Assembly (NCBI GenBank): GCA_948144175.1
Contig: CANXME010002579.1
Span: 1,672,001-1,736,000 of the forward strand
Reading direction: 5' to 3'
Source: Closterium sp. NIES-65
Taxonomy: Eukaryota > Streptophyta > Zygnematophyceae > Desmidiales > Closteriaceae
DNA length: 64,000 nt
This document shows, in pieces, positions 14,296-64,000 of this stretch. The notes beneath the pieces are model-generated. The model was not told the DNA's origin. It was given only the letters and a program-made list of their open reading frames with translations, and did not search any database. Positions within the stretch are counted from its first letter, which is position 1. Each line of letters opens with the position of its first letter. Position numbers and translations under genes: made by a program.

Positions 14296-14350
14296 ATTGA
14301 GAAAGCTTGCTTTCTTTCTTATCAATTGGCATCGTTCTCATTACAAATGG
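14296..14350 (-). repeat. Split direct repeat B1 (55 bp)
   Basis: Identical over 55 bp to 13935-13989. It overlaps the stop codon of the recombinase gene (TAA at 14341-14343). Confidence 0.9.
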
Positions 14351-15387
14351 GGTCTCTGAGACATGGGCAGCGGGGGCCTCCGGTTGCGTACGAGTGCCTC
14401 TGTGTGTTGCGCCGATGACACCGCATGCGTCGAATCTTGTAGGGTACGGGAGGCTTCGATGAGGGGCTCGACGTATGGCGTAACATACATTTCCTTTGCT
14501 GTGTCGCTTCGCCATCTGCCCAGCCGTTTGAAGACTCTGTCTGGCACTCCCGTGTTGGCTGCTACTGTGGCTGCACCTTTTCGGAAAGAATGGGTGCCTA
14601 GCTGCAACTCTCCAAGGCCAACCTTTGCGAAGGCTTCCTTGCACCAGTTCCGGATCGTAGTGTATGAAGGTGGCCTAGCCTGGCCCTCGCTGGTTGAACC
14701 GTGACCGAAGACACGAATCAATGGTCCCTCTGACCGTGGGCCATAGCCAGCGAGTCGGATGAAGCGTCGGGTGCAGCGCACTGGGCAGCAGGGGTCCGCC
14801 GTTGCTGCAATGGGTATCCAAGTGCCGTGACCAGCTTGATCGGTCTTGGAGTGTGGTATGAGAATCCACATGACCTCGTCGTCGAATTGGATGTCTTGCC
14901 ATTTTATGGCTACTAGGTCAGAGTATCGCAGGAATCCGGAGTACATGAGGATGGGTATCAACCCTTTCTGAAATTGCGCAGGATCGTCGGACTGCAAGTA
15001 GCTCGCGGCCATTTCCTGGACTTGTTGGATCGAGACGGGTTCCTTCAGACGAGTAGGGCGTGGGCAGTGTCGCTTTGCATAGTCACGGACTTGGGTGGTG
15101 AACGGTCCGGTTGTCGGGCATTTGCTCCCGGTCATGCGATGGGCGAAGCTGACCGCCGAGCAGGTTAGCTGCACTACGGACAGGGTGGCTTTGCGTCGGA
15201 TTGCGTGTACCAGGTATAGCGCGAGGGTCATGTCGGATGCCGGGAGGAATGGAAGGTTCACTTTTGTGCAGAAGGCTCGAAACTTGGCCCAGTATGGTTC
15301 ATATGTCCGGATCGTAGAATCGGCGCGGGACTGCGCGAGCATGTTGATCAGTTGGTCGTGTAACTTTGGGAGCAAATCTGAACACAA
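14341..15387 (-). CDS. Tyrosine recombinase of DIRS/PAT-like element
   Basis: A 348-residue lambda-integrase-type recombinase that would insert circular element DNA by strand exchange through a covalent phosphotyrosine. The catalytic set is complete: R154 (GFLRYSDL), K181 (HSKTDQ), H266 and R269 (THSFRKGAAT), W292 at the second His/Trp position (GRWRSD), and nucleophile Y301 (KEMYV). The N-terminal half (residues 10-110) fits the SAM-like core-binding domain. The ATG at 15387 lies 17 bp after the stop of the RT frame, so translation probably depends on the upstream ORF. No stops or frameshifts. This is the standard integration enzyme of DIRS, PAT and Ngaro elements and replaces an integrase. 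Confidence 0.94.
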   Translation of the reverse strand: MCSDLLPKLHDQLINMLAQSRADSTIRTYEPYWAKFRAFCTKVNLPFLPASDMTLALYLVHAIRRKATLSVVQLTCSAVSFAHRMTGSKCPTTGPFTTQVRDYAKRHCPRPTRLKEPVSIQQVQEMAASYLQSDDPAQFQKGLIPILMYSGFLRYSDLVAIKWQDIQFDDEVMWILIPHSKTDQAGHGTWIPIAATADPCCPVRCTRRFIRLAGYGPRSEGPLIRVFGHGSTSEGQARPPSYTTIRNWCKEAFAKVGLGELQLGTHSFRKGAATVAANTGVPDRVFKRLGRWRSDTAKEMYVTPYVEPLIEASRTLQDSTHAVSSAQHTEALVRNRRPPLPMSQRPHL

Positions 15388-15404
15388 GGTGTATATATTT
15401 TGAA

Positions 15405-17309: not shown

Positions 17310-17457
17310 GTGTGTAATAGTTCTGTCTGTAACGGCAAATTCGTACAGATCGTCGTGGCATGCCGCCTCGCACCGTCGTGCTCCGGCTTCATCTTCAGAG
17401 TCGTCGGTGTCGTTGTCGACCGCTGGAGCAGGGGGAGCGGCAGACGCTGCGTCGTTG

Positions 17458-18012
17458 TCATGCCGGTTCGTCCGTGCTCCCCGTGTGCCTTTCTCCTTTT
17501 TTTGCAGTTTCTTTTTTAGCCGACGCAGATGCGGCGGGTAGTGCAGTTTCCGCGGCTGTAACGCTGACGGGTTGCTGCTGTAGAAGGGACAGCAGCGCGT
17601 TGACCTGGTCCGGGGTCAACGCCTGCGTCAGCGCAGGGGCGGCGGTCGCGTCAGACGAGGAGACTGCAGTCCGCCTCCTCTGACGCTGACGCGACGGTCC
17701 AGCAGCGGGTGCTGGCGTGTGCTCGGCGTCAGTCGCGTGTGCCGCGCCAGTCCCCGTCGCCACTTGCGCCACAGGTGCCACTGGCGCCACAGGCGCCACT
17801 GGCGCCACAGGGACCGAAGGGTGCTGCTGGGTTTCGGCGTTTTTGTGGACCTCGAGCCCGCCCAGCAGCACGTCCACTGCAGTCGGGGCGGAAGGTCCGT
17901 CTTCTGCCCGACGCTTGTTACGGCGTTCGCCCGCAGAATCGCGGGCGTTACGGTCGGAGTCGGAAGCGGGGGTTGACGAGTTCCCGTTGTTAAGTGTCGG
18001 CGTAGGTGCCAT
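17458..18012 (-). CDS. Gag-like protein of DIRS/PAT-like element
   Basis: A 185-residue frame upstream of the RT, in the gag position. I start it at ATG 18012 (MAPTPTLNNG) because the longer frame runs into repeat A1. It has a basic patch (ERRNKRRAEDG), short tandem PVAPVAPVAP repeats, a second basic patch (SRQRQRRR) and a possible helix (LTPDQVNALLSLLQQQ). No CCHC knuckle is visible. Its TGA overlaps an ATG in another frame (ATGA, 17461-17458). Its function is inferred from position only: structural DIRS gags are poorly conserved in sequence. Confidence 0.6.
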   Translation of the reverse strand: MAPTPTLNNGNSSTPASDSDRNARDSAGERRNKRRAEDGPSAPTAVDVLLGGLEVHKNAETQQHPSVPVAPVAPVAPVAPVAQVATGTGAAHATDAEHTPAPAAGPSRQRQRRRTAVSSSDATAAPALTQALTPDQVNALLSLLQQQPVSVTAAETALPAASASAKKETAKKGERHTGSTDEPA

Positions 18013-18121
18013 CGTTGAGCGATTGAAGTTGAAAATGTCGCTGAGTAAAGTAGAGGGTGACTCGCCTCTAGGAAGCGATTTAATCCTAGCCAGCTTGGAG
18101 GGAAAAACTACTCGAGCGGAA

Positions 18122-18308
18122 AATGTTGAGTGAGCCGTTTGAAAATTGAGAAACGTGGGTGGAGGGAAATGAGCTCCAACCCACGGTTTTTGTAGTTGGA
18201 GAAGGGCGTTTAGCGCGCTTCGACGATGCCAATTGTGCAGTACAAGCAGCTTCGCTTTCACAATACACAATTTTAAAAAACACTACATGCGTGTTTAAAA
18301 ATTATAAT
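18122..18308 (-). repeat. Split direct repeat A1 (187 bp)
   Basis: Matches 14109-14295 with a single visible difference (CATGCGTG against CATGTGTG). It is the 5' terminal repeat of the DIRS-like element on the minus strand and overlaps the upstream extension of the gag-like frame. Confidence 0.92.
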
Positions 18309-42675: not shown

Positions 42676-43442
42676 GAAGGTCTCGGGTTCGCATCCTAGT
42701 GTGTACACTTCGGGCATCCTAGTGCGGGGGGCAGGGCTGACGATATCAGGGTAATTACCCTGATTTCAGGGTGATTACAGGCTTCTGACTTGGTGGTCCC
42801 TGCAAACACAGGTTTTGTAATTTGAGAACTCTGATCCTATCAGAGTAGCTACTTAACGGACTCTGAGTTCTTGTAACTAGGCTCAGAGTAGTGTACTTGC
42901 GGAGTATGTCTATGTAGAGTATGCGTTCCGTGGACCCTGAATGCGAGGGTATTGGGACGAAGTTTCCTAGAAGCTTCGTTTCGATAACCCCCTTGTGCGT
43001 AATCATTTCTTTGAGTGGCCCCATGTGAGGTACGTCACTCACGCGCCCGTGAGTGACGTAATTTCGACAAAGGACAACACTTACGTGCTGTACATCACAG
43101 CTGGCAACCACGCCAACGCAGCCAACTCAATGAGACGGTGCAGCCACGCGCACCGCACAGTGCACAGCATGTGTCTGCCATTGGCCAGAATGGCCTGTTG
43201 ACAGCATGCGGTGGCAGCCAAGGAGTCCGTGAATGAATTCGGCCTTGAATGCAAGGACGAATTCATCGAGGAATGTTGCCATCAAGTCCGTGGAATCGCG
43301 GCGCGGTGGTTTCGTGCTCCCGCCATCTCCAACCTCCCCTTCCCTCCCCATACCAGCAGCCAACGTTCCTTTGTTCACGAGTGTGTTCTTTCCATTACGT
43401 GCATTGATTGTCTCATTTTCCTCTCGTTCAGTTTAGCCACCA
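42676..43442. other. Region upstream of the hAT transposase gene
   Basis: No protein family recognised. It contains a 12-bp-stem inverted repeat (43032-43043 and 43048-43059, arm ACGTCACTCACG) with CRE/bZIP-like TGACGT cores, and a short motif CAGAGTAGCTAC (about 42843) echoed downstream of the transposase (about 46737). Confidence 0.5.
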
Positions 43443-46400
43443 ATGGAGGCCATGCTGGCCGACGAAGCTGCTCCGGACACTGGCCCCGACGAGCCGCCTG
43501 TAAGAGCGAAACCAACAGCGCCGTCTCAGCCGGAGAAAGCTTCGGATGCTCCCCGCTCTGGGCTAGATTTTCTTAGATCTACGGCTGCTCCCGTCACACC
43601 TGAATCGCCTAGGTCTACCGTTCACGATTCTGCCCTTGTAGTAACCCCTAATCCTACTGCTTCTCCTATTCCCGTCCCGTTCACTCTCCCTCCGGCTGTT
43701 GCTGGCTACAGCAAAAATCCTCCACCGCCCTCGCCGAGTCTTACTCCAAGCACGGTGCGGGTGTCCGTTGGCCCGCCGTCGGCTACTTCCGCTCCCAAGC
43801 GTGCGCGATCTGGAAAGTGGGCGCAGAGTACTCTGCTGGTGGGAGGCCGCCGTATTCCACCGCCGAAAAAGCCCGATGAGCCTGCATAGAAAGAAGCTGA
43901 GCTGGCGGAAGAAGGTGACATCCCGGTGCGCGCGGATACTGGCTCGCCGGCACTCACCAAGACGCAGCTGCGAGAGCAGATGTATCTAGAGGCGAGTATT
44001 AATTACGAGACGAAGTGGGCTGGATACTTTTCCTGGCTTGTGTTTGGGAAAACCAAGGACGGTGTCCTGTACGCGAAGTGCAGCATCTGCATGTCGTACG
44101 GTAAGGGGAACACGAGGTACGCCATGCAGGGAGACGACGGAGGCCGTGACTTGCAGACGCAGGCGTTCCGGGGGCACGAGCATACGGAGGCACACATGGC
44201 GGCGGTGGACCGCCAGATGAAGATTGCGGCGGGAATCCGCGAGGGGCAGCAGGTGATTTCGGACTTCATCAACTCCGACGTCGAGGGCCGCCGCGCGATA
44301 CGGCTGATGCGGTCGACTCAGTTCCTGTGCCAGTGCGACGCACCAATTAGCATGTTTCCTAAGCTGATGCGGCATCTTGCGGAGCAGGACACGCCAGACA
44401 TTCCTCGGTAGTCGTACGGCGTTTATCTCACGCGGTTAGTGACGGTTCAAATTGATTGCAAATTTAAACATGCACGTCAAACAACTAGCTTGACTATCGT
44501 GTACTGATAATTTCTCTGTCTTTTGTTGCAGCTACGGCTTCCAGCAGATGGTCCACAGCATGAGCACTTACCTCACCCGGGTGCAGATGGACCACGTCCT
44601 GGCATCACCGTTCCTGGGCATCCAGTGCGACGAGAGCACTGACCGCACGCGAGGGAAACATATGATTGTGTACCTTACATATCTGAAGAACCGCCAAGTT
44701 GCATGCGAGTTTTTCACTTTGCTGACGGTCGAGCGGTGTGATGCAGGGTCCTTGTTTGAGGTGCTGCTGAACCATCTTCGCTCCGCTGCCGTCGATGTGT
44801 CCAAGATCGTCGGCATCAGCACGGACGGGGCGCCGGTCATGACCGGGAGAGAGAACGGATTGGTGGGGCGTCTTCGTGAACACGTCCCTCATCTGTTCTC
44901 ATGCCACTGCATCGCCCATCGGTATGTGAGTTGATCAATATTGTAGCATGTTATCTACGCTGATTGGTTTACTAACAAACCATAATACTTGTTCCCTGCT
45001 TTACACAGTGAGGCGTTGGCTGTGAAGGACGCCGCTGACTCAAACCCGGATCTCGACATGGTCGACAAGGTGGTGCGCACTGTGGCGACTCTGCTCGGAA
45101 ACTCCAGCGTGTGGAGTCAGCGGTTCAAGTACCTGCAGCGTGTGATTTACAAGACCAACCTGGAAGTCCAAGGCATACACACGGTGCGGTGGCTGTCTCG
45201 AGGAGATGCGGTGGCCAGGCTGTGCAAGGTCCTCGGCGCTTGCATCGTGCTGCTCTGGGAGCACAATCACAAGGCGTACGAGATTGTCACCTGCTACAAG
45301 TTTCAGTTCTGCTTGTTTTTCTTGGCCGACATCTTGGCGGACATGAACGACCTCAACCGCTGCTTCCAGAGACGAGAGGTGAGGTCGCGTGTTTGTATGA
45401 TGTTGCTACGTGAGGTTCGTAACTGCACTGTTGCTCATCCTTCTCCCTCTTATCTACCCCTGCTCTGCCACAGCTGGACGTGACAGAGATTGCGAAGATG
45501 ATCGAGTCCACAATGAGTGACCTGGTGGAGCGCTACTTGACGCCAGAGAAAGCTTTCGGGGGCGAAGGGAAGAGCTGGCTGGTGACCTTCCTCAAAGTCC
45601 ACAAGGAGGGTGGAGGCAAGCAGGTCCGGGTGCGCGGCGTGGACGGTGCTGGGCGCCCAATCAACCACCTGTACACCATGCACGAGCGGAAGCTGAAGGG
45701 GCACAAATACGGAAGCACCTACGCAGACTGCGTGAAGCTGTGCCGCAAATTCGCCCGTGACTGCGTGGACAACCTCACCAACCGACTGGATGAACTTGGG
45801 AAGCTGGGGCCGACGAAGCTGTTCCGGGCGGGCAAGTGGCCGAAGATCAAGGCCCAGCGAGAGAAGAAGTGTAAGGAGTGGCTGAACGGGTGCAGCAAGT
45901 TGTTCCGCAACAAGCTGCCGGGATTCGACATCAAAGCAGCAGAGAGGGAGCTTCCAACCTTCTGCGCGATCATGGAGGCACACCATGAGATGGAGAGCTT
46001 CACCCAGGGCCTGTCCAACTTCCTTGGGAGCGCAGACTCCAAGAGGTAGCCTTTATTTTGTGTCCATGGGTTTTACAATCTTGTTCATTGCTAACTGTTT
46101 CCGTTGTGTTGAGTGTACGCATGTGCCTGGCAGGAGATGGCCCAACCTCATCCTGCTGTGGCAGGCGCTGGCAGTGCTCCCTCTCTCCACCGTGGAGTGC
46201 GAGAGGGGGTTCTCCAGGCAGAACGTCATCAAGTCCTGGGTGCGAGGAGCGCTGTGCAACGCGCGTCTGGGGGAGCTGATGCAAATATCGCTCCTCAAGT
46301 ATGAGATCGACTGGCCGGAGGCACTGGAGGTGTGGAGGTCCTTGCGGACTAGGCGCCCTGCGAAGAGCTTGAAGCTGGCTGTAGCAGAGAGGGAGAGGAA

Positions 46401-46512
46401 AGGGAAGCAGAAGGAGGGTGAAGATGTGGCTGCTCGAAATGCCAGGGAAAATGAGGATGAGGAGGAGGAGGAGGAGGACGATGAAGTGGAAAAGGCCTTC
46501 GACGACGATTAG
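43443..46512 (+). CDS. hAT superfamily transposase, five exons, two in-frame TAG codons
   Basis: A cut-and-paste transposase of the hAT superfamily. Exons with matching phases are 43443-44407, 44532-44921, 45009-45378, 45474-46045 and 46134-46512, about 892 codons. A TTF/BED-like zinc finger (CSIC ... HEHTEAH) is encoded at about 44080-44200. The catalytic region has CDESTDRTRGKHM and GISTDGAPVMTGRENGL, then HLFSCHCIAHREALAVKDA across intron 2. The C-terminal dimerisation domain reads LPLSTVECERGFSRQNVIKSW and LGELMQISL in exon 5. One TAG (43887-43889) interrupts the disordered N-terminus; initiation at ATG 43980 would bypass it. A second TAG (46510-46512) is followed by about 31 more acidic in-frame codons to TAG 46606, suggesting the original end. 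Terminal inverted repeats were not resolved. Confidence 0.85.

Positions 46513-51678: not shown

Positions 51679-51684
<6 letters not shown>
49168..51684 (-). mobile_element. LINE-D: degenerate RLE-type LINE copy, 5'-truncated
   Basis: A minus-strand relic of the LINE family seen intact further right. Its 3' end abuts CTCTCTCTC (49159-49167). Its 5' end stops at the (CT)n tract into which LINE-A's 3' end is set. The RT and endonuclease parts are recognisable but damaged. Confidence 0.85.
49262..51660 (-). pseudogene. LINE-D RT and RLE endonuclease remnants
   Basis: The best-preserved part (49577-50239) reads HALALSVQGSRYAAQ, NPLAGHTQRMISLTGYG, a degraded zinc-finger region KCSKHVEITDPQLPN, HNELRDANITMAQEA and the endonuclease core ADLMIRDKSSGAVWICDVTI. 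Upstream, RT traces include the YADD region (about 51150), a GVRQGDP region (about 51260) and ARPITIGE at the 5' limit (about 51600). Frameshifts and stops are scattered between them. Confidence 0.82.

Positions 51685-51762
<78 letters not shown>
51685..51762. repeat. (CT)n microsatellite, about 39 repeats, at LINE-A 3' end
   Basis: A pure CT/GA tract between LINE-D and LINE-A. Shorter (CT)n tracts sit at the 3' ends of LINE-B (56990-57001) and LINE-D (49159-49167), suggesting a target preference. Confidence 0.97.
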
Positions 51763-51763
<1 letters not shown>

Positions 51764-51853
51764 ATGGTCCTTTTATTGATATAGCAGTCAAGTACAGGCA
51801 GGCAAGTTATAGTGGCCTAGATAACAAGCATGCTGGTTGCAAACATCGCCGAT

Positions 51854-54800
51854 CTACAACTCTACGAGGGGCTCAATCACTGCAAAGCAGTCCCCTAGAT
51901 GCAACTCATCCCCAATTCCTCCCACCGGCGGGTTCTCAACCGCCGCCGCCTCCCCAAGCTTGAGCAGGAGGCCTACAGATTGGGCCCTTTGCAGGGCCAC
52001 AGACCAGCGCTGCCTGAACTGGTGCAGGAACTTTGCAGCATAGAACGATTTAGAGTCGGCGTTGAAGTGCCGCCGAGCTGCAGTGTCCGCTAAGAGCTTC
52101 AAAAAGGCTGGTACCTCCGCACACGGGCAGCCATAGGTGTCCACAGCCAGGGGGAAGAAGGTCACCGTCTCTGGTAGGGAGGCGTAGTGCTGGATTTTCT
52201 TGTCCGCTTGCTCCTGGGCCGCCCAGCCCCTGCCCTTCTGTGCCTCCGGGTCCCTTGTGCTAATGGGGTCGGTGATGGTGACATCACATACATAGACGGC
52301 CCCACTGCTCCTGTCCGTCATTGTAAAATCTGCCGTCTGTTCCTCAACGGGGCAGTGCGCTGAGGACTCTCTGTGAACGATGAAACCCGCGTCCTGGGCC
52401 ATGCTGACACAGGCATCGCGCAACTCGTTGTGGGTGTTGATGCGATGCTTGCCTGTGCCGCAGCGGAGAAGGTGATTCGGGAGGCGGGGGTCCGTGATCT
52501 CCGTGTGGTCCGCACAGTCGCAATTCTTCGGCGTGGAGAAGGGGAGGGCCAGCCGGAAACGTACGGCATTGGAAAAGTGAGTGGGCCCTATCCTCCTGTT
52601 GGCCGCAATCGGGATAGCGGTCAGCCAATCCCCAGTCCCGTACCCCGTCATTGAGTACATCCGCTGCGTATGTCCGCACAAGGGGTTCACCGCCATCTCC
52701 CTCGTCGCCTGCACCTACGCCGCATATCTACTCCCATGCACCCTTAGCGCCAATGCGTGCTGGAGCCTCACATCAGTTCGCTCCAGCCGTTCTTTCTCCA
52801 GGACTTCTCGCGCATCGTCGGGTAACGCTGTTTCACACTCCAACAGCCACGTGTGAAGGGGTGTGGTGGTGTCAGCGGGCAACTGCATGTGGTCCCGCGC
52901 CTGCGCCAGCGCGCCCTCAGGAGCGCCGTCTAGTGATGCGATGAAAAGCGCCGCCTGCGTGAAGCTCGCTGCGAACCCGAAAACACCCTCGACCAGCGGG
53001 TCAGTAATGCCTATCCCTCCCAAAGACGGCGGCAGAGACGCCTGCGCCCAGACACGTGCTTGCTCGGTACGGCAGGTGGGGACGCGAAGGTGGCATGCTG
53101 TGAGTAGGGCCGCTAGCAGGTCTGTCCCCCACTGGCTCCAGGTCTCTCGCGGCAAAAGGGAGAGCGGTGTTGTTCTGGTAAGGTATGCCACACGCCTCGA
53201 AATGCAGCGGGTGAGTAATAACGAGGCTACCTGCGGGTCGGCTTTCTCGAGCAGTGGCAGGGGTTTGGCCATCTCCTGCAGCTGACCCGACAGGAACTGT
53301 GACGCCCCACTGTCAGGCCCCACAAAGCTTCCGAGCAAGCGAACACCATCCTGGGAGAATGGTACGTCGTGCGGCAGCAGATCCTTTACTGCTGCTTGTG
53401 TGCTCCAAGCTGCGCATTTCTGCGCATTATGCCGTAATCCCAGGTGTGCCAGCTGCTCGGTGAAGTGGTTGAAGGCTGCTACAGTAGCCGTCGCCTCCCC
53501 CAGGAATGTGACGTCGTCGGCGTATGCCAGACACAGCACCTGGGGGTGTGCTGCAGCAGTGTCGCGGAGTGTAGTGTGCATACCTGCCGCAAACAGTAGT
53601 GGGCCAAGTGGGTCCCCTTGGCGCACGCCCCGTTCGCTGATCAGTGGGTCCGATCCAAAATTCGCGTCGACGAATAATTTCGACGGGTTACCGTATGTCA
53701 GTTTCACCAGCGGCAGTAGTGGCGACAATTCTGGTCCTTGTAACGCTGTCGCGATGGCTTGCCGTGAAATGCTGTTGAATGCATTTGAGATGTCGGTTTG
53801 CAGCACGAGGTTGTTGGGAAGCTTGTCCAGATACGCCCGTGCCACGTGGATGACTGCCTCGGCTCCTCCAGGCACGTCTACGCCATACTGTAGAGGTAGG
53901 AAAAAGGCCCGCGCGGCCTCTCCCATGGCTGCGAGGGCTGCTTTGGCAGTCAGCCGCGTGATGCATTCGCCAATGGCGATTGGTCGAGCCCCCCCACCAG
54001 GTTTGGCCAGGGCAATGAGCCGTGAAGCTGTCAGTAGGTCCGACACCGGTGCTGGAAGGTTGCCCCCCAAAATGGTGTTAACCAAGGCGTGCAGATGGGT
54101 GCTAACTCGTCTATTCGTGATTGCCGCGTCGCGCATGTGTTCGAATGTCGTTCCCGATGGCCCAGCACCGACCCCATTTTCACACCTTCCCAACAGTTTG
54201 GCGAAGTCAGCCTGGGTGATGAACAATTTTGACTCAGGCGAGGGTGGCCACGTCGTCTCCCCTGATTCGGCTGGCGGGTGTTTCTGTCGAAGCTCCTCCA
54301 GAATTTCCGGAGTTGGGGTGCAGACTGGCGTTGACTCCAACGCCAGCACAGCGCGTCGTAGGCTACCCCGTTTCGCCAGGCCCTCGGCCCTGCTGATGAC
54401 CCCGGTTGCGTCGGGCTTGTGACGTGGAGGCGTGGGAGTGTTGACTGCTTCGATCGCATCCTGGTACAGTTGACCCCACTCGCCACGTTGGAAGGCTCGG
54501 AGCCGGGCCTTGATCTGGGGCCAGTTTGGTTTCCGTGGCGAGGTCTGGCGAAGCGTCAGACGTGGCAGAAATAGGAGTAGGCGCCAACCTGCCTCTCCTT
54601 CCGGGTTTCGTGACAGGTTGAGTAACGGGGTTAGCAGCGCCAGCGAAAACAACTGGCACAAATTGGGCGGTAACCGCCTTGCCAGGGATGGTTGTCGACA
54701 ATCGCAGAGGGCTGGGATATCCCAGTTCTCGACGCCAGCGAACAGATCTGCTCGCGTCGCCAACTCCTCTGGCGTTAAATAGCGCGGGGGATTGGGATTG

Positions 54801-55468
54801 TCTCGCACCGATGCCGCTGCCGTCGCGGCCCGATTTCTCCCGGTGCGGCCCGGCCTTGCTTGTGATGGTGCGGTTGGAATTTCGCCCGTACGATTGCCAT
54901 CGGACGGTCCAGCCGCGGTGGTCGTTCCCTCTCCTCGGGACCGCCTTGTTCTCGCTCCTGTCCTTCTCCCATTCTCCTCTACCCCTTCCTCTGCTTCCGA
55001 CCCTTCCTCCGCACTGGATGGGGTTGGCTCTTCTCTATAAGAGGGGTCATTTTCTTCTTCGTCATTAAGTAGCCTAGTTAAAGCCCTTCTGGCCTCCCTC
55101 TGATAGCCATTCTCTGGCCCACCTCCTCGACCGCTACCTGCTGCCCGCCCATCGCCTCGCGCTTCCTGTCCTCGCGATGGTGATTGCTGGTGTGACTGAT
55201 TATTCGCCAATGCGCGTTGGCGCCGCGTCGGTTGTACTCGAAAGGCCGTCGTCTGCCTCAGGAGCGAGGACCGAGGCGACGGGCTCCCCGCCACTGTCTG
55301 TTCTGCCGCCCGGCCTAGTAGCCGCTGAAAAGACTCCTCCCCTCGTATCCGCACGTCCTCTTGTCGTGAACGGGGTTGAGCCGTCTGCGCCGATGGTTGC
55401 TCCTCCCGCTCCGCCTGTCGCCCCCTCTCCGCCTGTTCTCCCTGTTCCTGCCGTGCCGCTGGCGGCAT
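51854..55468 (-). CDS. LINE-A reverse transcriptase with zinc finger and restriction-like endonuclease
   Basis: Target-primed reverse transcription enzyme. A conserved pre-RT region (RRLPPNLCQLFSLALLTPLL, GWRLLLFLPRLTLRQ) precedes the RT: GPSGTTFEHMRDA, GGGARPIAIGE, VLQTDISNAFNS, ERGVRQGDPLGPLLFA and catalytic AYADDVTFLG (YADD at 53513-53524). A CCHC-like finger (CDCADHTEITDPRLPNHLLRC, about 52450-52540) follows. The PD-(D/E)XK endonuclease has ADFTMTDRSSGAVYVCDVTI and a downstream Lys (QADKKIQHY). One TAG (52715-52717) splits the frame at a Gln codon kept in LINE-B (SRYAEQVQAT). The ATG at 55468 follows an in-frame TGA (55487-55489), but conserved coding extends upstream (GRQWWRTP near 55590), so the true start is unclear. 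An RLE rather than APE nuclease places it with R2/CRE/NeSL-type LINEs. Confidence 0.9.
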
Positions 55469-56613
55469 CTGCTCCTGCCGGGGGGGTCACCGCTCATCCT
55501 GTCCCAGGGCCTGGCGTTCCAGCTGCACCTGCCGGTGCTGTCCCCGGCGTGCCGGTGCTGGCGTCTGCTTCTTCGTCGCCTGCGGTGTCCGCCACCACTG
55601 GCGGCCCGCCCTCGGTGGTTGCTCTTCCGAGCGCGGATCAGTCTCCTCCCGTTCCACCGCCTGCGGCTCCGGTTGTTCCGCCGTCTCGTCCCCCGTCGCC
55701 TGACCGCCGCTTGTCCCGGCCCCATTCTCCCGCGCCACCGCAGGAGCGCGAGACGTCTCGGCGCCGGCGGAACTCCCCCCGGCGCTACCAGCAGCAGGCC
55801 CAGTGGCCAACGCACTCGGGTGGCAGTCGGGGATGGCGGGGCCCCCCGGGGCGCGGTGGAGGCGGGTCGTATCGGCCGCCAGTGACGCTGGCGGACCTCC
55901 AGCGCGAGGTGTCTCGGGAGGTGTCGCGTGCCGTACGTCAGGGGAGGGCAGCGCCGGGCCAGAGCAATTCGCGGCAGGCTGCTCCGGAGCCCGTTGCTCC
56001 TCGTTCGCCTGTGCATCATGTAGCCCCTCCGCCGGCTGTTGCTCCTCTTCCTCATGTCCCTGCCCCGTCCGTTCCTTCTCCTTCTGTTGCGGCGCCGGCG
56101 ACCGGCTCCCGCCTGCATCTGCCACCTGTTCCGCCTGTCGCGGGGGTAGAGTTCGTGGCGGCGGGTAGTGGCGCGGATGCGGCTCTGTACGCTGCTGATG
56201 AGTCTCTCCGGTTCCTGGCGGCGGCTCTGCTGCCTCCGCAGACGCGCGTTCCTGAGACAACGCTTGGACAGCTTCACCGTCTCGCGGAGAGCCTGCATGC
56301 TTTGCTTCTGATTCAAGTGCTTGCGCACTCGTCTCTCCCTGCTGTCCCGCCCGAGTCCTTTCGCGGCCACCTGCGTGACCCGTGCCTCGACGCAGCTGAC
56401 CAGCTCGCGGAGCTGCTGGCGCCCGTGCTGGCTGCGCCCGCAGAGGGAGGTGCTGCTGCCGCGGGACAGCTTGGTGAGGCTGTCCGGAGCTTAAAGCGGC
56501 ACTTGCGCGTTGGATCTGGAGCCGCGGCGATCGGCGCAAGCGCAATTGTGGTCCGGGAGCTGTGGCGCTCCCTGACGGGCATTCTCCATGCCCTTGGAGC
56601 TCACCGCTTGTAG
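55177..56613 (+). CDS. Gag-like ORF divergent to the LINE RT (LINE-A)
   Basis: A 478-residue frame on the strand opposite the RT. The N-terminal third is Pro/Ala/Val-rich. The middle has an Arg-Ser segment (RPPSPDRRLSRPHSP, RRRRNSPRRY) and an RGG-type stretch (GWRGPPGRGGGGSYRPP), typical of RNA-binding proteins. Then come VTLADLQREVSREVSRAVRQ and a C-terminal helical domain (TLGQLHRLAESLHAL, AELLAPVLAA, VRELWRSLTGIL). Copies exist at 60435-61205 and 62323-63725. Across copies this strand shows mostly synonymous differences from about 55680 onward, so it is very likely a real protein. Its role is unknown; a gag/ORF1-like RNA-binding function is inferred from composition and context. The start is uncertain because the first 400 bases overlap the RT frame. 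Confidence 0.75.
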   Translation: MVIAGVTDYSPMRVGAASVVLERPSSASGARTEATGSPPLSVLPPGLVAAEKTPPLVSARPLVVNGVEPSAPMVAPPAPPVAPSPPVLPVPAVPLAASAPAGGVTAHPVPGPGVPAAPAGAVPGVPVLASASSSPAVSATTGGPPSVVALPSADQSPPVPPPAAPVVPPSRPPSPDRRLSRPHSPAPPQERETSRRRRNSPRRYQQQAQWPTHSGGSRGWRGPPGRGGGGSYRPPVTLADLQREVSREVSRAVRQGRAAPGQSNSRQAAPEPVAPRSPVHHVAPPPAVAPLPHVPAPSVPSPSVAAPATGSRLHLPPVPPVAGVEFVAAGSGADAALYAADESLRFLAAALLPPQTRVPETTLGQLHRLAESLHALLLIQVLAHSSLPAVPPESFRGHLRDPCLDAADQLAELLAPVLAAPAEGGAAAAGQLGEAVRSLKRHLRVGSGAAAIGASAIVVRELWRSLTGILHALGAHRL

Positions 56614-56728
56614 GCGCGGGCTCTTCTTGCGCTGTTGGGGCAGCTTGCACGGCTTGACGCGTGCGGGATGTGGCGGCCGCGTGCCCCGGGAGCTCACCGC
56701 TGCTAGTTGCGGGCTCCTCTTGCTCCAT
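55490..56728 (-). CDS. LINE-A minus-strand N-terminal frame (upstream of in-frame TGA)
   Basis: 413 codons open in the same frame as the RT, beginning MEQEEPA. Only its downstream end looks conserved as protein: GRQWWRTP is kept in LINE-A, -B and -C with synonymous changes at Gly, Arg, Thr and Pro. Most of the rest is low-complexity Gln/Ala/Arg/Pro and lies opposite the plus-strand gag-like ORF, whose own conservation is stronger there. The upstream two-thirds may therefore be a shadow. Confidence 0.35.
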
Positions 56729-56813
56729 GTATCTCTTAGGCCTGTGTGGAGTGATGCATGCTTGTATATTTTCCTATACTTGCTAATGTTGCTGCTTTCC
56801 TTGCCGCCCCTCA

Positions 56814-56862
56814 CGCGCGGCCGAAGGCCGCGCAATCGAGCGTCGGCCGCCGAAGGCGGCCG
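56814..56862. other. Two GC hairpins with GAA loops at the LINE-A 5' end
   Basis: Perfect stems: GCGCGGCC-GAA-GGCCGCGC (56815-56833) and CGGCCGCC-GAA-GGCGGCCG (56844-56862). The first is conserved in LINE-C (63866-63884) at the same place relative to the ORFs, so it belongs to the element. It could act as a 5' RNA structure of the minus transcript or in 3' processing of the plus transcript. Confidence 0.75.
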
Positions 56863-56989
56863 GCGCGAGCCGCTCGGTTAGGAGGGCACACGAACTATGA
56901 AACGAATAATGAGGCACTAGGAACAGATCCTAGGGCCTTTATACTAGGCTGGAGGGGGCTGGAGAGGCTAAGGACTAGCTCCTAGGGCC

Positions 56990-57001
56990 TCTCTCTCTCT
57001 A
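56990..57001. repeat. Short (CT)6 tract at LINE-B 3' end
   Basis: CT repeat directly followed by AATGGTCC, the same junction as at LINE-A (51762/51763). Confidence 0.8.
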
Positions 57002-57103
57002 ATGGTCCGTATATTGATAAGCCAGAAGGGTACACACATGCAGTGAGAGACAGCCGGTACTAACACGCAAGGTAACCTAGACTATCCAACCCCACTAAGT
57101 CAC

Positions 57104-60100
57104 CTAGAGCTCAAGAAGAGGCTCTAGGACGGTAAAACAGTCCCCAAGGTACAATTCCTGCCCTATCCCTCCTACAGGCGGGTTCTCTGCAGCCGCCGCC
57201 TCTCCTAACTTGATCATGAGACCCACGGATTGGGCCCTCTGCAGTGCAACCGACCACCTCTGCCTGAACTGGTGCAGAAACTTTGCGGCATGATAGGATT
57301 TGGAGTCGGCGTTGAAGTATCGCCGAGCCGCCGTGTCCGCAAGGAGTTTCAGGAACACAGGGACCTCCGCACAAGGGCAGCCATAGGTCTCTACGGCGAG
57401 GGGGAAGAAGCCCACTGTCTCTGGCAGGTTTTCATAGTGCTTGATCTTTTTATCCGCCTGCTCCCTGGCCGCCCATCCCCTTCCTTTCCTAGCCTCCGGG
57501 TCCCTGGTACTAATAGGGTCCGTTACCGTCACATCACACACCCAAACCGCCCCACTGCTCTTGTCCGTCATGGTAAAGTCCGCGGTCTGCTCCTCTATGG
57601 GGCAGTACACGTTTGTTTCTCTATGTACGATGAACCCCGCGTCTTGTGCCATGCTGATGCAAGCGTCGCGGAGCTCATTATGAGTATTCGTACGGTGTTT
57701 CCCTGTGCCGCAGCGGAAGAGGTGGTTGGGGAGGCGCGGGTCTGTGATAGCGGTGTGGTCAGTACAGTCACAGTTCTTCGGCATGCGGGGGTCGGTGATA
57801 GCCGTTTTGTCCGCGTAGTCACAATTCTTAGGAGTCGAGAAGGGGAGAGCCAGGCGGAATTTGATGGAGTTAGCGAAGTGTACGGGGCCCATCCGCCTAG
57901 TCGCTTCGATAGGTATCGCGGTCAGCCAATCACCGGTGCCGTACCCCGTCAGCGAAAACATGCGCTGAGTGTGGCCGAAGAGTGGGTTCAGTCGCATGCG
58001 CTTGGTTGCCTGGACCTGCTCGGCGTATCTGCTGCCGTGCACCTGCAGCCCGAGGACGTGTTGAAGACGTATGTCCGATCGCTCCAACCGCTCCTTTTCC
58101 AGTATCTCACGAGCGTCAGTCGACAGCGCCTCCTCGCACCCCTTCACCCAAACGTGAAGGCGCGTGCTGGTATCCCGCGGCAGGAGCATGTGGTCCCGTG
58201 CCTGCTTCAGTGCGTTCCCATCGCCCAGCGTGAGGTCGTTGAGAAACAGCGCCGCCTAGGTGAAGCTCGCGGCGAAACCGTAGACCCCCTCAATCAAGGG
58301 GTTCGTGATGCCTAGCCCCACTAATGACGGAGGCAGTGACGCCTGCTCCCAAACCCTCGTCTGCTCTGAATGGCAAGTCGGCATGCGGATGTCGCAGGCG
58401 GTAAGGAGCGTGGTGAGGAGGTCCATGCCCCACTGGCTCCATTTGTCGCGGGGAAGAAGATTCAGGGGCGTCGTCCGTGTCAGGTACGCAACACGCCTCG
58501 ATATGCATCGCGTGATAAGTAGTGATGCGACCTGGGGATCCGTTCGTTCGATGAGCATCAACGGCTTCGCCATGTCAGCTAACTGCTCCGCCAGAAAAGA
58601 AGCCGCGCCGTCGTCCGGTCCGAGGAAACTGCCCAGTAGCTGGACGCCGTCGTTTGAAAACGGCACTCCGGGGGGTAAGTGCGGTGCTTGTATCGTACTG
58701 GAGCTCCACGCAGCACATTTTCGTGGGTTGTGCTCAAGCCCCAGGAGTGACAATTTGTCGGTGAAGTATGAAATGCTGCTACAGTGTCTCTTTGTTCCCC
58801 GATGAATGTCACGTCATCCGCATACGCCAAACAGAGCACCCCGGGGTGTGTGTCCGCCGTATCGCAAAGTGTGGCATGTATTCCTGCTGCGAATAGCAGC
58901 GGGCCGAGTGGGTCCCCCTGGCGAACACCGCGTTCGCTTCGCAGTGGTTCGGACTCGAAGGTTGCATCTAGGAGCAGCTGCGACGGGTTACCGTAGGTGA
59001 ACTTGACGAGCGGCAACAGCGCCGAGAGGGTGGGGGTTTGTAACGCGGTGGCGATGGCTTTTCGCGAGATACTGTTGAATGCGTTCCTGATGTCAGCTTG
59101 CAGCACGAGGGTGTCGGGGCGGGCGTCCAAGAAGGCCCTGGCCGCGTGGATCACAGTCTCGGCGCCACTTGGCACTGCCACGCCGTACTGTAGAGGAAGG
59201 AAAAATTCGCGAGCTGCCTCCCCCATTGCCAGAAGGGCTGCCTTGGCTGCTAGCCTCGTCAGGCATTCGCCAATCGCGATTGGCCGAGCGCCACCCCCTG
59301 GTTTGGCCAAGGCGATGAGGCGCGACGCGGTTAACAAATTCGCCACCGTGTCTGGCAAATTCCCTCCCAGGATTGTGTTAACAAGGGCGTGCAGATGGGT
59401 GCTGACCAGCGCATTTGTTATCGCCGAGTCGCGCAAATGCTCAAATGTCATTCCCGACGGCTCAGCCCCAACTCCATCATCACAGTCTCGGCGCCACTTG
59501 GCACTGCCACGCCGTACCGCCGTACCGACGGCCCAGCCCCAACTCCATTTTCGCACCAACTTCATCCCAGTTGCCACGCGTTGACTCCAATGCAAGGACG
59601 ACTCGTCGTAGGCTGCCACGTTTCGCCAGCCCCTCGGCCCGTTTGATTACTCCTGTCACGTGTGGCCTGTGCCAGGGCGGGGGTGGCGCGTTGACTGCAG
59701 CAATCGTGTCTAGGTACAGTTGCTCCCATTCGCCACGTTGGAAGGCTCGCAGCCGGGCCTTGACTTTCGGCCAGTCCGGTCGTTGCGGCGAGGTTTGGCG
59801 AAGGGTCAGGCGCGGGAGAAACAGCAGCAGACGCCAACCTGTTTCCGACTCCGGGTTTCGGGAGAGATGCAGTAACGGCGTCAGTAACACTAGCGAGAAC
59901 AGCTGACACAGGTTTGGCGGTAAGCGCCGTGACAGCGGGGGCTGACGACTATCGCTCAAAGCCGCGACATCCCAATCCCCTACCGCAGCGGACAGGTCTG
60001 TTCGCTTCGCCAATTCCTCAGACGAAAAATAGCGGGGGGCCGAAGCGGCCTGTCGTGGTGCAGCCCCCCTACTCGCGGCCCGATTTCGCCGAGCCTGACT

Positions 60101-60879
60101 CGGTCCCGCTGGTGAGGCGAATGTTGGAGGCTCTACCGTCCGATCAGCATCGTGCGGCGTGCGTGCCTCCTGGAGCGGTTGTGCTCGTGCTGTCCTGGCC
60201 CCGGCTTCTCTTCTCCCAGAGCTCACCCTCACTCCGTCCCCTTCCTCCTCCCCTTCATCCTCGCTATCCGGCGTGGCGTCTCTCCTATAAGAGGGGTCCC
60301 TTCTCTCGTCCTCTTCAACAGCTGATTGTAGGTTGTTTAAAGCCACACGTGCCGCGGCTTGGTATCCGTTCTCTAGGCCCCCGCCGACTCCGCTTCCTGC
60401 TACGTAGTTCGTCCCGCGATCTCCTCGCGTCCGAGATGGTGGTGATTGCTGGAGCTGATGAGCCGTTGCCAGAGCGCGCTTCGCCTGGTCGGCTGTCGTC
60501 GCCAGGTCTCAGTCGGGACTCGAAAAGGGGACCATGGCGACGAAACCCCCTCTACCGCTTGCACCGAACGCCGAGACAACAGTCTCTGAAAGGACTCCTC
60601 TCCACGCACCCGTGGCTCCGCAAGGCGTGGCAGCGGCTGGCCCGTCTGCTCCGCCTGCGGCTCCCGTGCCCCCTGCTCCCGTGGTGGCGGCGGAGGCGAC
60701 TGTGTCTGCTGGGGGGGCTGCTGCACTGCCTGCCCCTGCGCTTGGCGCGGTCGTTGTACCGGCCGTGTCTGTTCCCGGCGTGCCTGCGCCGCCGTCTTCT
60801 TCTTCCCCGAGGGCGGCGTCCGCCACCACTGTCTCCCCTGCTCCGGTGGTTGCTCCTCCTGGCGCGAAACCGGCGGCAC
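57104..60879 (-). pseudogene. LINE-B RT and RLE endonuclease, broken
   Basis: The C-terminal part (57104-58189) is open: HGSRYAEQVQATKRM, GHTQRMFSLTGYGTGDW, HNELRDACISMAQDA, ADFTMTDKSSGAVWVCDVTV, QADKKIKHY. It contains an internal duplication of 16 codons in the zinc finger. TAG at 58256-58258 replaces the Gln of ASFTQAAL. RT blocks (GGGARPIAIGE, VLQADIRNAFNS, ERGVRQGDPLGPLLFA, AYADDVTFIG) lie at 58579-59480, then a templated insertion near 59480 disrupts the frame. The pre-RT region LPPNLCQLFSLVLLTPLLHL is at 59480-60346, and the N-terminal EESFQRLLSRR and GRQWWRTPP at 60600-60850 after another shift. Confidence 0.88.
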
Positions 60880-61205
60880 CTGCTCAACTGCAGGCGGCCC
60901 TTGCAGCGCAGCCGTCTCGTCCCCCGTCGCCCGATTGCCGATCGTCTCGCCCTCATTCCCCCTCGCCTCACCAGGATCGCAAGTCGTCTCGTGGCCGTCG
61001 AGATTCTCCCCGGCGGTACCAGGAGCGGCCTCGCTGGCCTGCTCGCCCCGGTGGTCAGGGGGACTGGAGGGGTCCCCGCGGGCGCGGTGGTGGTGGGGGG
61101 TACCGCCCGCCGGTGACGATGGCCGATCTTCAGCGGGAGGTGTCCCGGGCCGTTCGCGCGGAGAGGGCGGCGCAAGGCCAGAGCAGTTCGTCGCGGGCTG
61201 CGCCG
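60435..61205 (+). pseudogene. Gag-like ORF of LINE-B, frameshifted and truncated
   Basis: Starts MVVIAGADE near 60435, shifts frame near 60530, then continues PPSPDCRSSRPHSPSPHQDR, RRDSPRRYQERP, WRGPRGRGGGGGYRPPVTMADLQREVSRAVR. It is cut at about 61205, before the C-terminal helical domain, where LINE-C sequence in the opposite sense begins. Many differences from LINE-A in the Arg-Ser part are synonymous on this strand. Confidence 0.75.
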
Positions 61206-62437
61206 GGTAATTTGCCTGCCATGATGGTGTTCACTAGGGCATGTAGGTGGGTGCAGACCGATGCGCTGGTTGCCGATGCGTCGCGAAGGTGTTCGAAGGC
61301 GGTTCCGGACGGTCCGGTCCCCACACCATTTTCGCACCGACCCAGAAGCTTGGCGAAATCAGCTTGGCTGATTTGCAGGTTCGGGCCTGGTGTCGTTGGC
61401 CAGCTCAGCTGCTCGTCATCGGCTCAGGGGTGTTTCGCGCGGAGTTCTTCCAAAACTGCTGGGCCAGGTGGGCAGACTGGGGTTGACTCGAGGGCCAGCA
61501 CGGCTCGGCGGAGGCTTCCTCGCTTGGCCAGGCCTTCCGCCCTGCTGAGAACTCCCGCCTCGTCTGGCTGGTGACGTGGAAGCGGTGGGGTGTTGTTGGC
61601 TTCGATCGTGTCAGAGTACAGCTGCCCCCATTCGCCACGCTGGAAAGCTCTGAGACGGGCTTTGACTTCGGGCCACTTCGGTCTTCTTGGCGACGGTTGG
61701 CGAAGTGTGAGCCGAGGGAGAAACAGCAGCAGTCGCCAGCCTGCGACTGAGTCAGGGTTTCGCGCGAGGTGTAGGAGCGGGGTGAGTAACACCAGCGAAA
61801 ATAGCTGACACAAATTGGGCGGTAATCGGCGCGACAGGGATGGCTGACGACTGTCGCAAAGTGCCGCCAAGTCCCAATCATCGATGGCTGCGAACAGGTC
61901 TGATCGTTTCGCCAATTCCCCTGGCGAGAAGTAGCGGGGGAAATGTGCTTGGTTTGCGGACGCGCTGCGAGAGCGCGCTGCCTGATGTCTCTGCTCGCGC
62001 CTTTGTGCGTCGCTCTGTCCAGGAGTTGGGATTGTGGCCGTCCGATTGATCTATTGCCTGCCTCCTTCCTCGTCCGCCTCATGCTCACCAGCTCGCCTCC
62101 CAGTCCCTAGCCTCTCTCCTGCATCATCTGTTTCCTCCGCGTCGTCTTCACTTTGTGGGAGCGGCTCCTCCCTATAAGAAGGGTCCCGTCGTTCCTCCTC
62201 CTCATCAGTTCTCTCCAGAACCGTTAAAGCCTGTCTCCCTGCCGCTTGGAAGCCATTCTCCGGTCCACCCCCTGCGCCGCTAGCCGTCACTCTCCCTCTG
62301 CCTCGCCCTCCTTGGCCTCGCGATGGTGATTGCTGGGCCGACCGATTATTCGCCAATGCACGTTGGCGCTGCGTCGGTTGCGTTCGGAAAGCCACCGCCT
62401 GCCTCCGGAACGGGGACCATGCCGACGGGCTCCCCAA
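61206..62437 (-). pseudogene. LINE-C N-terminal, pre-RT and RT start
   Basis: Conserved pieces are FRTQPTQRQRALANNRSAQQ (62330-62400), GGGPENGFQ, DPSYREEP, LPPNLCQLFSLVLLTPLLHL (61770-61830), GWRLLLFLPRLTLRQPSP and GPSGTAFEHLRDA with LHALVNTIMAGKLP at the truncation. Frames change near 61915 and 61424. Confidence 0.82.
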
Positions 62438-63725
62438 CGCTGCCTGTTCCGAGGCTCGTGACAGTAGACGCTGAAATCCTTCCTCGCCCGCACCGTCGTT
62501 TCAAGAGGCCTTGGCGTCTCTTCCTGTCGAGCCGCCTGTTCCCCTCGCGGCGGCGTTTGATGTATCTGCTCCGTCAGTCGTTCCTCGAGCTGCCGACCCT
62601 GCTGTTCCGTCAGCGGCCGCCGCGCGGGCAGTTGTTGCTGGCGGCGTGACTGACCAGCCGGAGGGGTCCGCCACCACTGACGTCCAGGGCCAGCCGGCGC
62701 TTCCCGCCTCTCCGGCTCCCCCGTCTGCACCGTCTGCGGGGGCTCCTCTCGTGCCGCCTGCTGATGCTCCCGTTGCCCAGCCGGGTGTTGCTCCGCCTGC
62801 TCCGCCCGAGGCGGGTCCGTCTGCGCCGTCTGTGGCAGTTCCTGGTGCACCACTGGTGGCGAATCCCTCTGCGCTGACCGTTCGGCGTCCGCAGTCTCCT
62901 GGCCGTCATCAGCAGCGGCCGCAATCCCTAGCGTGTCAGGACGTACGCGCGACGTCCCGGCGCCGCCACAATTCTCCGCGGCGCCGCGGTTCTCGGGCGA
63001 ACTGAGCGACGCAACGCGGCGACCGAGGCGGCTGGTGGGGGCCGCGTCAGCGGGATGGCGGCTGGGGGTCTGATCAGCCGGTGACGATGGCTGATCTGCA
63101 GCGCGCGGTGTCTGCTGCTGTGCGCGAGGAGCGGAACGGGCAGGCGAGCCAGAGCAACTCCCCGCGTGTTGCTCCGACCCCCGCGGCACCTCCTCCAGCA
63201 GCACCTCCTGCCCTGGTAGCCCCTCGTCCTCCTGCAAACGTTCCTCCTCCTCATGTCCCCGTGGCTGCGCATTATCCGTCCGTGCTGCCCGTTGATCCCG
63301 CTCCCCCATCCACAGGTGCGGCGTACTCGTTCTCAGCCCTACTGGGGCCTCAGCATCCGGTCGCGGTTCCGGAGGTGACCCTTGGTCAGATCTGGCGCCT
63401 CTCGGAGGCGCTGCGGGTCGTGCATCTAGTGCAGGTGTATGGTCATGCCGCCCTGTCCCAGGGCGACTCGCTGGTGGGCGGCCCTCGGGACGATTGTTTC
63501 GCGGCAGCTGATCGCCTCGCCGAGCTGCTAGCGCCCGTGTTGGCTGCGCTCGCGCCGGGTGGGCTTGCGGGGGTCGGGCCCCTTGGTTCTGCTGTGCGTG
63601 GGCTGCGGCGGTTGTTGCATGCAGGGACTGGATCCGGGGCGATCGCCGCAGGCACGGTGTTGGTGCGTGAGTTGCATCGCACGCTGTCAGGGCTGCTTGT
63701 TGTGTTTGATGCGGATCAGGTCTAG
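62323..63725 (+). pseudogene. Gag-like ORF of LINE-C, one frameshift and one stop
   Basis: Starts MVIAGPTDYSPMHVGAAS, shifts frame around 62500-62640, has a TGA at 63003-63005, then continues PVTMADLQRAVSAAVREER and a C-terminal domain (VTLGQIWRLSEALRVVHL, ADRLAELLAPVLAA, VRELHRTLSGLL) clearly homologous to LINE-A's. Leu, Ala, Arg and Gly codons in this domain differ mainly at synonymous positions. It ends TAG 63723-63725, at the homologous place. Confidence 0.75.
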
Positions 63726-63865
63726 CGTCCGCGTGCCCCGGGAGCTCACCGCGTGTAGATGCGGGCTCCTCTTGCTCCATGCTTCACCTAGGCTAGAGTG
63801 GTGTGTGCCATGCGTGTATGTGTGCCTATAGTTGCTTGTTTTGTGTGTTTCTTGCCACTCCTCAC

Positions 63866-63884
63866 GCGCGGCCGAAGGCCGCGC
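63866..63884. other. Conserved GAA-loop hairpin of LINE-C
   Basis: GCGCGGCC-GAA-GGCCGCGC, identical to the LINE-A hairpin at 56815-56833. The second hairpin of LINE-A is only half present here. Confidence 0.75.
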
Positions 63885-64000
63885 CGCGAGCGCCGGCCGC
63901 CGGGTTGGTGAGATGAACCACCAAAGAACTAATGAAATGAGGAAGACAGAGGCCGGTTTATGAGGCAGGATGTACTCATTATAGGCTGTTTTATGAGGCT

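Follow-up and report, generated by a model that had tools for sequence, protein, structure and literature searches.

Can the same bases of a retrotransposon hold two protein-coding genes, one on each strand? This question is raised by a 64,000-nucleotide (nt) stretch of DNA from Closterium sp. NIES-65 (GenBank assembly GCA_948144175.1, contig CANXME010002579.1, positions 1,672,001 to 1,736,000 of the forward strand; hereafter the window, numbered from its first letter), where a long interspersed nuclear element (LINE), copy A, carries long open reading frames (ORFs) on both strands. Copy A is an R2-type LINE, in the broad sense of a LINE that encodes a restriction-like endonuclease (RLE). Within the N-terminal part of its minus-strand reverse transcriptase (RT) ORF, ORF2, lies a 478-codon ORF in antisense orientation. 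Judging from the sequence evidence described below, both frames are kept open by selection, and it is likely that both strands are translated.

A plus-strand frame nested antisense in ORF2

The plus ORF of copy A lies wholly inside ORF2, whose start codon is located beyond the plus stop codon (Table 1). The minus frame of copy A is open across the entire plus ORF and up to 56728, except for one TGA (55487-55489), which is one of two nonsense codons in the ORF2 of this copy (the other being a TAG at 52715-52717). In intact copies, ~1,430 bases carry an open frame on each strand.

A search of the genome (874 Mb, 2,400 contigs) returned at least 222 matching places, young and old, where all copy counts are lower bounds. 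Loci were fetched by similarity to the plus ORF or to its C-terminal part, yielding 58 loci that represent 51 distinct copies. Three of the loci (L032, L033, and L035) displayed a minus frame that was stop-free over 1,624 codons, from the ATG at +1551 (56728 in copy A) to a TAG at -3321, together with an intact 478-codon plus ORF. In six loci of two further subfamilies (88% and 75%; L042-L045, L048, and L050), the minus frame was open from an ATG at +1455 to +1476, which lies 22 nt beyond the final base of the plus stop codon and is preceded by an in-frame stop 3-18 nt further upstream. Of the 20 full-length loci, 9 kept both frames fully open and 11 had at least one minus stop. The nested geometry was also kept in divergent subfamilies, in which two plus proteins may be as little as 41% identical. 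In L051-L058, eight divergent loci of shorter length, the plus ORF spanned 462-501 codons and its stop was followed after 22, 31, or 55 nt by an in-frame minus ATG; minus stops in their overlap were absent from six, single in L057, and two in L058 (L056 has one further left, at -228). Across the 51 distinct copies, the overlap held no minus stop in 37, one in 12, two in one, and three in one. The ORF2 ATG was in most lineages preceded by an in-frame stop 3-39 nt upstream and stood 22-31 nt past the plus stop, the distance being 55 nt in the C lineage and 115 nt in the A lineage. Conserved N-terminal residues of ORF2 include LRRS.

The original prediction, made from the letters of the window, had described an RT-endonuclease frame and a gag-like frame that run apart from overlapping 5′ ends in copy A and in its neighbors, copies B and C, and had taken the family for a bidirectional non-LTR (long terminal repeat) element with a divergently expressed ORF1-like protein. 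Coding frames on both strands are indeed strongly supported, and both the plus ORF and the minus RT frame were found in copy A, but the geometry is fully antisense rather than divergent with a small overlap: the plus ORF is nested whole in ORF2, beyond a mere overlap of 5′ ends. The gag-like frame is intact in copy A (478 residues), but it is frameshifted and cut at 61205 in copy B and carries a frameshift and a stop in copy C. Each of the three copies is thus broken in at least one frame, A in the minus frame and B and C in the plus frame.

Both frames are kept open beyond chance

We evaluated the openness of the minus frame by shuffling synonymous codons within each plus ORF, which keeps its protein and its codon usage, and counting minus stops in 2,000 such shuffles. 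Thirteen copies contained no stop in the minus frame and three others contained 1, 1, and 2, as compared to 6.1-12.1 expected, and all 16 copies were accordingly depleted, with only 0 or 1 of the 2,000 shuffles yielding so few stops. For the second antisense frame that was tested, 15 of 16 copies showed no depletion. When broken down by segment, 11 copies held 3 minus stops versus 103.5 expected, and none versus 26.7 over plus residues 361-478. Non-overlapping control frames displayed no significant depletion, with observed versus expected stops of 28 versus 27.4 for the RT, 13 versus 13.1 and 23 versus 20.9 for the endonuclease, and 33 versus 37.7 for a DIRS element; depletion of ATG codons in the minus frame was not significant either. 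Chance openness of the minus frame is thus rejected by the synonymous shuffles, with the other antisense frame and other genes as controls, and both frames are kept open beyond chance.

Amino-acid constraint was likewise found on each strand. Substitutions relative to copy A peaked at minus codon position 3 on the left and at plus position 3 on the right, with a phase switch near 55350 in the pair A-C and near 55650 in A-B; in the comparison of B with C, the frameshift of B conceals any such switch. Over 55491-56613, the ratio of nonsynonymous to synonymous differences (pN/pS) for A-B, A-C, and B-C was 0.52, 0.63, and 0.61 in the plus frame and 0.87, 1.07, and 1.04 in the minus frame. The original prediction had named a plus-strand dN/dS (the corresponding ratio of substitution rates) near 1 across many copies as the outcome that would speak against it; over 55 pairs of copies, we found a plus pN/pS of 0.30-0.71, alongside a minus pN/pS of 0.62-1.38.

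The constraint shifts between the strands along the overlap. In segments numbered by plus residues, and evaluated from six close pairs that share members, plus/minus pN/pS was 0.97/0.67 for residues 1-40, 0.86/0.49 for 41-120, 0.51/0.70 for 121-200, 0.21/1.68 for 201-240, 0.52/0.74 for 241-320, 0.52/1.63 for 321-360, and 0.21/2.17 for 361-478. Near the RT, the constraint thus comes from ORF2, in the Arg-Ser/RGG and C-terminal parts it comes from the plus protein, and in the stretches between them it comes from both. The low plus values for residues 201-240 and 361-478 bear out the earlier impression that differences between copies are largely synonymous on the plus strand in the Arg-Ser part and the C-terminal domain. 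The companion impression, of minus-strand synonymy around the motif GRQWWRTP, stood for only one pair in the window, as minus pN/pS over 55491-55680 was 0.59 for A-B (bootstrap 0.37-0.98) but 1.17 for A-C and 1.02 for B-C; in the genome-wide copies, minus pN/pS was 0.49 for residues 41-120, while residues 121-200 gave 0.51 in the plus and 0.70 in the minus frame.

The two frames can also be set against each other by codon position, since plus position 2 is minus position 3, and plus position 1 is common to both frames. Five sister pairs displayed 449 changes at plus position 2 versus 389 at position 1 (P = 0.02), while in the RT control position 1 was the higher in all three pairs (18 versus 27, 101 versus 167, and 106 versus 167 for position 2 versus position 1). 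Taken together, the two frames form an overlapping antisense pair in which both are open beyond chance and each is under amino-acid constraint, the minus constraint being present in part of the overlap only.

The element, its plus-strand protein, and candidate signals

Table 1. Features of copy A and its neighboring copies in the window.
Feature	Position	Strand	Basis or detail
Antisense nested ORF, 478 residues (MVIAG...LGAHRL)	55177..56613	+	ATG 55177, TAG 56611-56613, no internal stop
ORF2 (RT and endonuclease) frame of copy A	51854..56728	-	ATG 56728 (MEQEEPA)
Conserved motif GRQWWRTP within the overlap	55583..55606	-	
Arg-Ser and RGG-like stretch	55678..55866	+	sequence; plus pN/pS 0.21 for residues 201-240
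Predicted single helix, residues 238-257 (ADLQREVSR...)	55888..55947	+	AlphaFold2 model
C-terminal helical domain, residues 342-472, four-helix-bundle-like	56200..56592	+	AlphaFold2 and fold comparison
RVT_1 reverse transcriptase domain	53330..54007	-	Pfam, E = 7.5e-20
Zinc-knuckle-like and restriction-like endonuclease domain	51926..52690	-	
TATA box CTATAAGAGGGGTC upstream of plus ORF	55035..55048	+	also at 60285 (B) and 62172 (C)
TATA-like box (TATAAA) upstream of ORF2	56938..56943	-	
7-codon upstream ORF (MHHSTQA*) before ORF2 ATG	56736..56759	-	
LINE copy A	51762..56988	-	3′ end at 51762 (TAATGGTCC, minus strand ...AATAAAAGGACCATTA); putative 5′ end 56988, right end abuts CT run
LINE copy B	57000..61205	-	adjoins A in the same TC run, 5′ side cut; plus ATG 60436, then frameshift
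LINE copy C	61206..63902	-	3′ half absent; plus ATG 62323, frameshift and one stop

The assignment of copy A to the R2 type follows from its ORF2. The closest solved relative of its RT by sequence in the PDB was the R2 protein 9nl3 (E = 1.3e-9), and ORF2 contains a C-terminal restriction-like endonuclease fold for which R2 chains topped the structure comparisons; the endonuclease profile by itself matched no PDB sequence at E = 1, such that the R2-type likeness of this domain came from the fold only. Its knuckle residues C65, C67, H81, and C85 were conserved at ≥90%, with a spacing of C-x-C-x13-H-x3-C as compared to the CX2-3CX7-8HX4C given in PMC5678591. Copy A is flanked by TC runs (51684-51761 and 56989-57000) and hence sits in a (TC)n microsatellite; (GA)n followed the constant 3′ end of the LINE in 10 of the 10 loci displayed, and the right ends abutted CT runs in copy A and in the loci scanned. 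No relatives of the LINE RT were confirmed in viral contigs. Two features of the neighboring copies emerged on the side. An alignment revealed a 17-residue duplication in the endonuclease knuckle of copy B (about 57760-57835; PKNCDYADKTAITDPRMPKNCDC...), and the 5′ loss of B and the loss of the 3′ half of C share one junction at 61205-61206, which suggests a deletion or recombination between tandem copies.

The 120 homologs listed, out of 246 database matches to the plus ORF, were all predicted proteins of Closterium strains, with none from outside Closterium among them. MVIAG and the C-terminal motif were both present in 58 of 123 proteins (these 120 and three minus-strand ones), and MVIAG, ADLQ, and the C-terminal end were kept at ≥90% in 56 aligned sequences. 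In the AlphaFold2 model, residues 1-340 were mostly of low confidence save for helix 238-257, whereas the helical domain of about residues 342-472 was confident. No Pfam family matched the plus protein at E = 0.1, and Foldseek returned no match below E = 0.001 for the C-terminal domain, the top matches being unrelated helical bundles. Neither a retroviral capsid nor an L1 ORF1 fold was present among the best 50 of 617 fold matches or among 50 matches of a second comparison. In view of its Arg-Ser/RGG composition and its helices, and since no other ORF1 is present, we refer to the product, provisionally, as ORF1-like.

A conserved TATA box and start codon suggest that the plus strand is expressed. 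The motif CTATAAGARGGGTC occurred three times in the window, once each in copies A, B, and C, where 0.4 occurrences would be expected if two mismatches are allowed; its minus-strand reading is TCT-TAT-AGR, where TCT makes up 8% of the serine codons in RT frames. Genome-wide, TATA[AT] was found at -138 to -152 from the plus ATG, with no ATG in between, in all 58 loci (51 distinct copies), although an ATG-free leader is unremarkable in each lineage alone (chance of none, 0.31-0.52).

On the sense side, in each of two overlapping sets of 13 loci, 12 carried an upstream ORF (uORF) of exactly 7 codons that lies 30-40 nt ahead of the ORF2 ATG; the locus L055 has a 5-codon uORF there and two longer uORFs further up. 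The uORF peptides vary, with several loci sharing one and many others reading M-A/S-x-x-T-x-x. Both length and pattern are thus kept, and the constant length despite a varying peptide suggests a conserved control of re-initiation. Separately, four loci (L002, L003, L012, and L015) display, in their 5′ regions downstream of the plus stop, two TATA-like boxes split by CT runs, as if promoter units were tandemly repeated, akin to the monomers of L1. The ORF2 leader of copy A also contains two strong hairpins at 56805-56880, partly common to copy C (fold z-score, -1.1); a hepatitis delta virus-like ribozyme or another known RNA was considered for these hairpins and rejected, as no Rfam match reached the gathering score.

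These elements can be assembled into a working model. A 5′ promoter at the (TC)n side would produce the sense RNA, as suggested by the TATA-like box in 6 of 13 leaders, and ribosomes would pass the 7-codon uORF and initiate ORF2 at the ATG just past the end of the antisense ORF. The antisense gene sits between the ORF2 start and the RT, where stops are purged even at positions where the ORF2 amino acids are free. This may be understood if ORF2, with its start beyond that gene, must read through the complement of the antisense gene, such that mostly only stops would be fatal. A second promoter inside ORF2 (the TATA box at 55035-55048) would make an antisense mRNA whose first ATG is the plus start. 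The resulting protein, with its Arg-Ser/RGG part and helical bundle, might bind the RNA of the element as an ORF1-like partner, which is the weakest step of the model. Lastly, by analogy to R2, the endonuclease would nick the (GA)n/(TC)n microsatellites in which the copies are positioned, for target-primed insertion.

Elsewhere in the window, reading of the ORFs pointed to further mobile elements: DIRS-like ORFs at 14341-18282 on the minus strand, with a tyrosine-recombinase-like ORF beside an RT ORF; several Copia-like copies at 20000-42300, whose coding stretches contain long Pro/Ala/Gly tandem repeats and whose leaders are repetitive; and ORFs resembling a decayed hAT-type transposase at 43437-46512 on the plus strand.

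Alternative explanations and known systems

Several observations weigh against our reading of a nested gene pair translated from both strands. Regarding openness, L055 was depleted of stops in the other antisense frame as well (P = 0.007), and a Copia control frame was mildly depleted (36 versus 44.3, P = 0.03; versus 50.9 by codon permutation, P = 0.002). The 16 depletion tests are moreover not independent, as the copies share ancestry, though plus proteins of different lineages diverge by up to 59%. The plus ORF was full length in 50 of the 51 distinct fetched copies, a fraction that is biased by the choice of loci by plus-ORF similarity, and copies B and C, which were not so chosen, are plus-broken. 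In 14 of the 51 copies, the overlap is interrupted by 1-3 minus stops; this is in keeping with decay, yet it implies that some copies are not dual. Regarding constraint, minus pN/pS exceeded 1.6 in three segments, and much of the ORF2 arm is unconstrained beyond its openness; the codon-position test is weak as a sum (P = 0.02), with the pair L052-L053 running opposite (149 versus 138); and only 2 database proteins matched the minus N-terminus versus 246 for the plus ORF. Of 13 leaders, only 6 contained the sense TATA[AT]A; among the remaining seven, five are cut short, and two (L021 and L028, 280 nt) lack it. Finally, the C-terminal fold of the plus protein is generic, and given this the label ORF1-like is a guess.

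The explanation that survives best next to ours accepts translation of both frames, but takes the plus product for a regulator, acting for instance on silencing, on copy number, or on access to the nucleus, instead of an ORF1-like protein that packages RNA; the complementary mRNAs may themselves form double-stranded RNA. The lack of a Pfam family and the generic bundle would suit such a role, and PMC7264820 suggests that the antisense ORFs found in LTR elements of plants have a regulatory function. On the other hand, the Arg-Ser/RGG part (residues 201-240) is among the most constrained, which fits RNA binding, and RLE LINEs are described in PMC5678591 as single-ORF elements, so that an RNA-binding partner would be a gain. 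We regard a regulator as possible, but tentatively so.

By analogy to a proposal for ambigrammatic narnaviruses, the open antisense frame might let ribosomes pass or shield the RNA instead of encoding a protein, which we consider improbable here. A minus arm that is open yet free in sequence over three segments would agree with this idea, and ribosome protection has been raised for narnaviruses (PMC8316113), but the minus frame here is the N-terminus of ORF2 itself, with conserved motifs, and the plus frame, which possesses a TATA box and a start of its own, shows amino-acid constraint. Very improbable, in our estimate, is a head-to-head arrangement with partial overlap, where ORF2 would start near GRQWWRTP or further left and the remaining minus openness would come from chance or GC-rich codon use. 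While the minus pN/pS of ≥1.6 over plus residues 201-240, 321-360, and 361-478 and the scarcity of matches to the minus N-terminus (2 proteins) are what such an arrangement would lead one to expect, it is contradicted by the 0 stops versus 26.7 expected in residues 361-478 of 11 copies, by a depletion in 16 of 16 copies for the minus frame versus 1 of 16 for the other frame tested, by an ORF2 ATG that in most lineages sits beside the plus stop and follows an in-frame stop by 3-39 nt, as well as by the uORF, and by conserved N-terminal residues such as LRRS. That the plus ORF is an unrelated host gene or neighboring element beside which the LINE happened to insert, as the lack of homologs outside Closterium among the 120 listed of 246 might hint, can be dismissed, since the same geometry recurred in 51 distinct fetched copies including divergent subfamilies.

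We therefore return to an antisense gene nested in ORF2, and compare it to known systems. Copy A shares with R2-type LINEs the order of an RT followed by a zinc-knuckle-like and restriction-like endonuclease region, and insertion into a repeated target; it differs in a long N-terminal arm that lacks their Pfam domains (ORF2 was searched in pieces), in the second gene antisense inside it, and in the target, (GA)n/(TC)n. An antisense promoter inside a LINE, here predicted, is shared with human L1 ORF0 and mouse L1 ORF1. L1 ORF0 is short and lies outside the main ORFs, whereas the plus ORF here spans 462-501 codons wholly inside ORF2. The L1-type ORF1 protein, for its part, is encoded on the same strand as ORF2 and has an RNA recognition motif-type domain, unlike the antisense plus ORF, which matches no Pfam family at E = 0.1. 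For mouse L1, the antisense promoter was reported in connection with fusion transcripts rather than with a nested conserved protein (PMC3985663). Some HERO families and Togen combine an RLE with a microsatellite target (PMC4640811), but the word "antisense" is absent from the main text of that paper, and the likeness is one of description rather than of RT tree. The plant LTR elements Grande (gene23), RIRE2, and Retand have a conserved antisense ORF, with its own promoter in Grande, but according to the text of PMC7264820 these ORFs lie between pol and the 3′ LTR and not antisense to polymerase coding sequence. A further analogy is found in ambigrammatic narnaviruses, where long ORFs on both strands over the same bases are kept by selection (PMC8316113); those are RNA viruses, whereas the present element is a retrotransposon in a genome, with a separate TATA box for its antisense frame and constraint on the product of that frame. 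Searches of the open-access PMC library listed no LINE, of RLE or other type, with a nested antisense protein gene. Long overlaps between antisense genes have mainly been described in viruses and bacteria.

On balance, we lean toward viewing this family as the first ambigrammatic retrotransposon, an R2-type LINE that gained a second protein coded on the complement of its own polymerase gene, such that 1.4 kilobases specify two selected proteins. If so, the two mRNAs would be complementary by construction, and a 5′ truncation that reaches the overlap would at once deprive one gene of its start and the other of its end. More than 200 matching places in one eukaryotic genome provide natural replicates in which the sharing of one double helix by two proteins can be measured codon by codon. 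The family would also offer a concrete route by which a single-ORF LINE may gain an ORF1-like partner, and it raises the testable question of how an element with complementary mRNAs avoids, or uses, RNA silencing.

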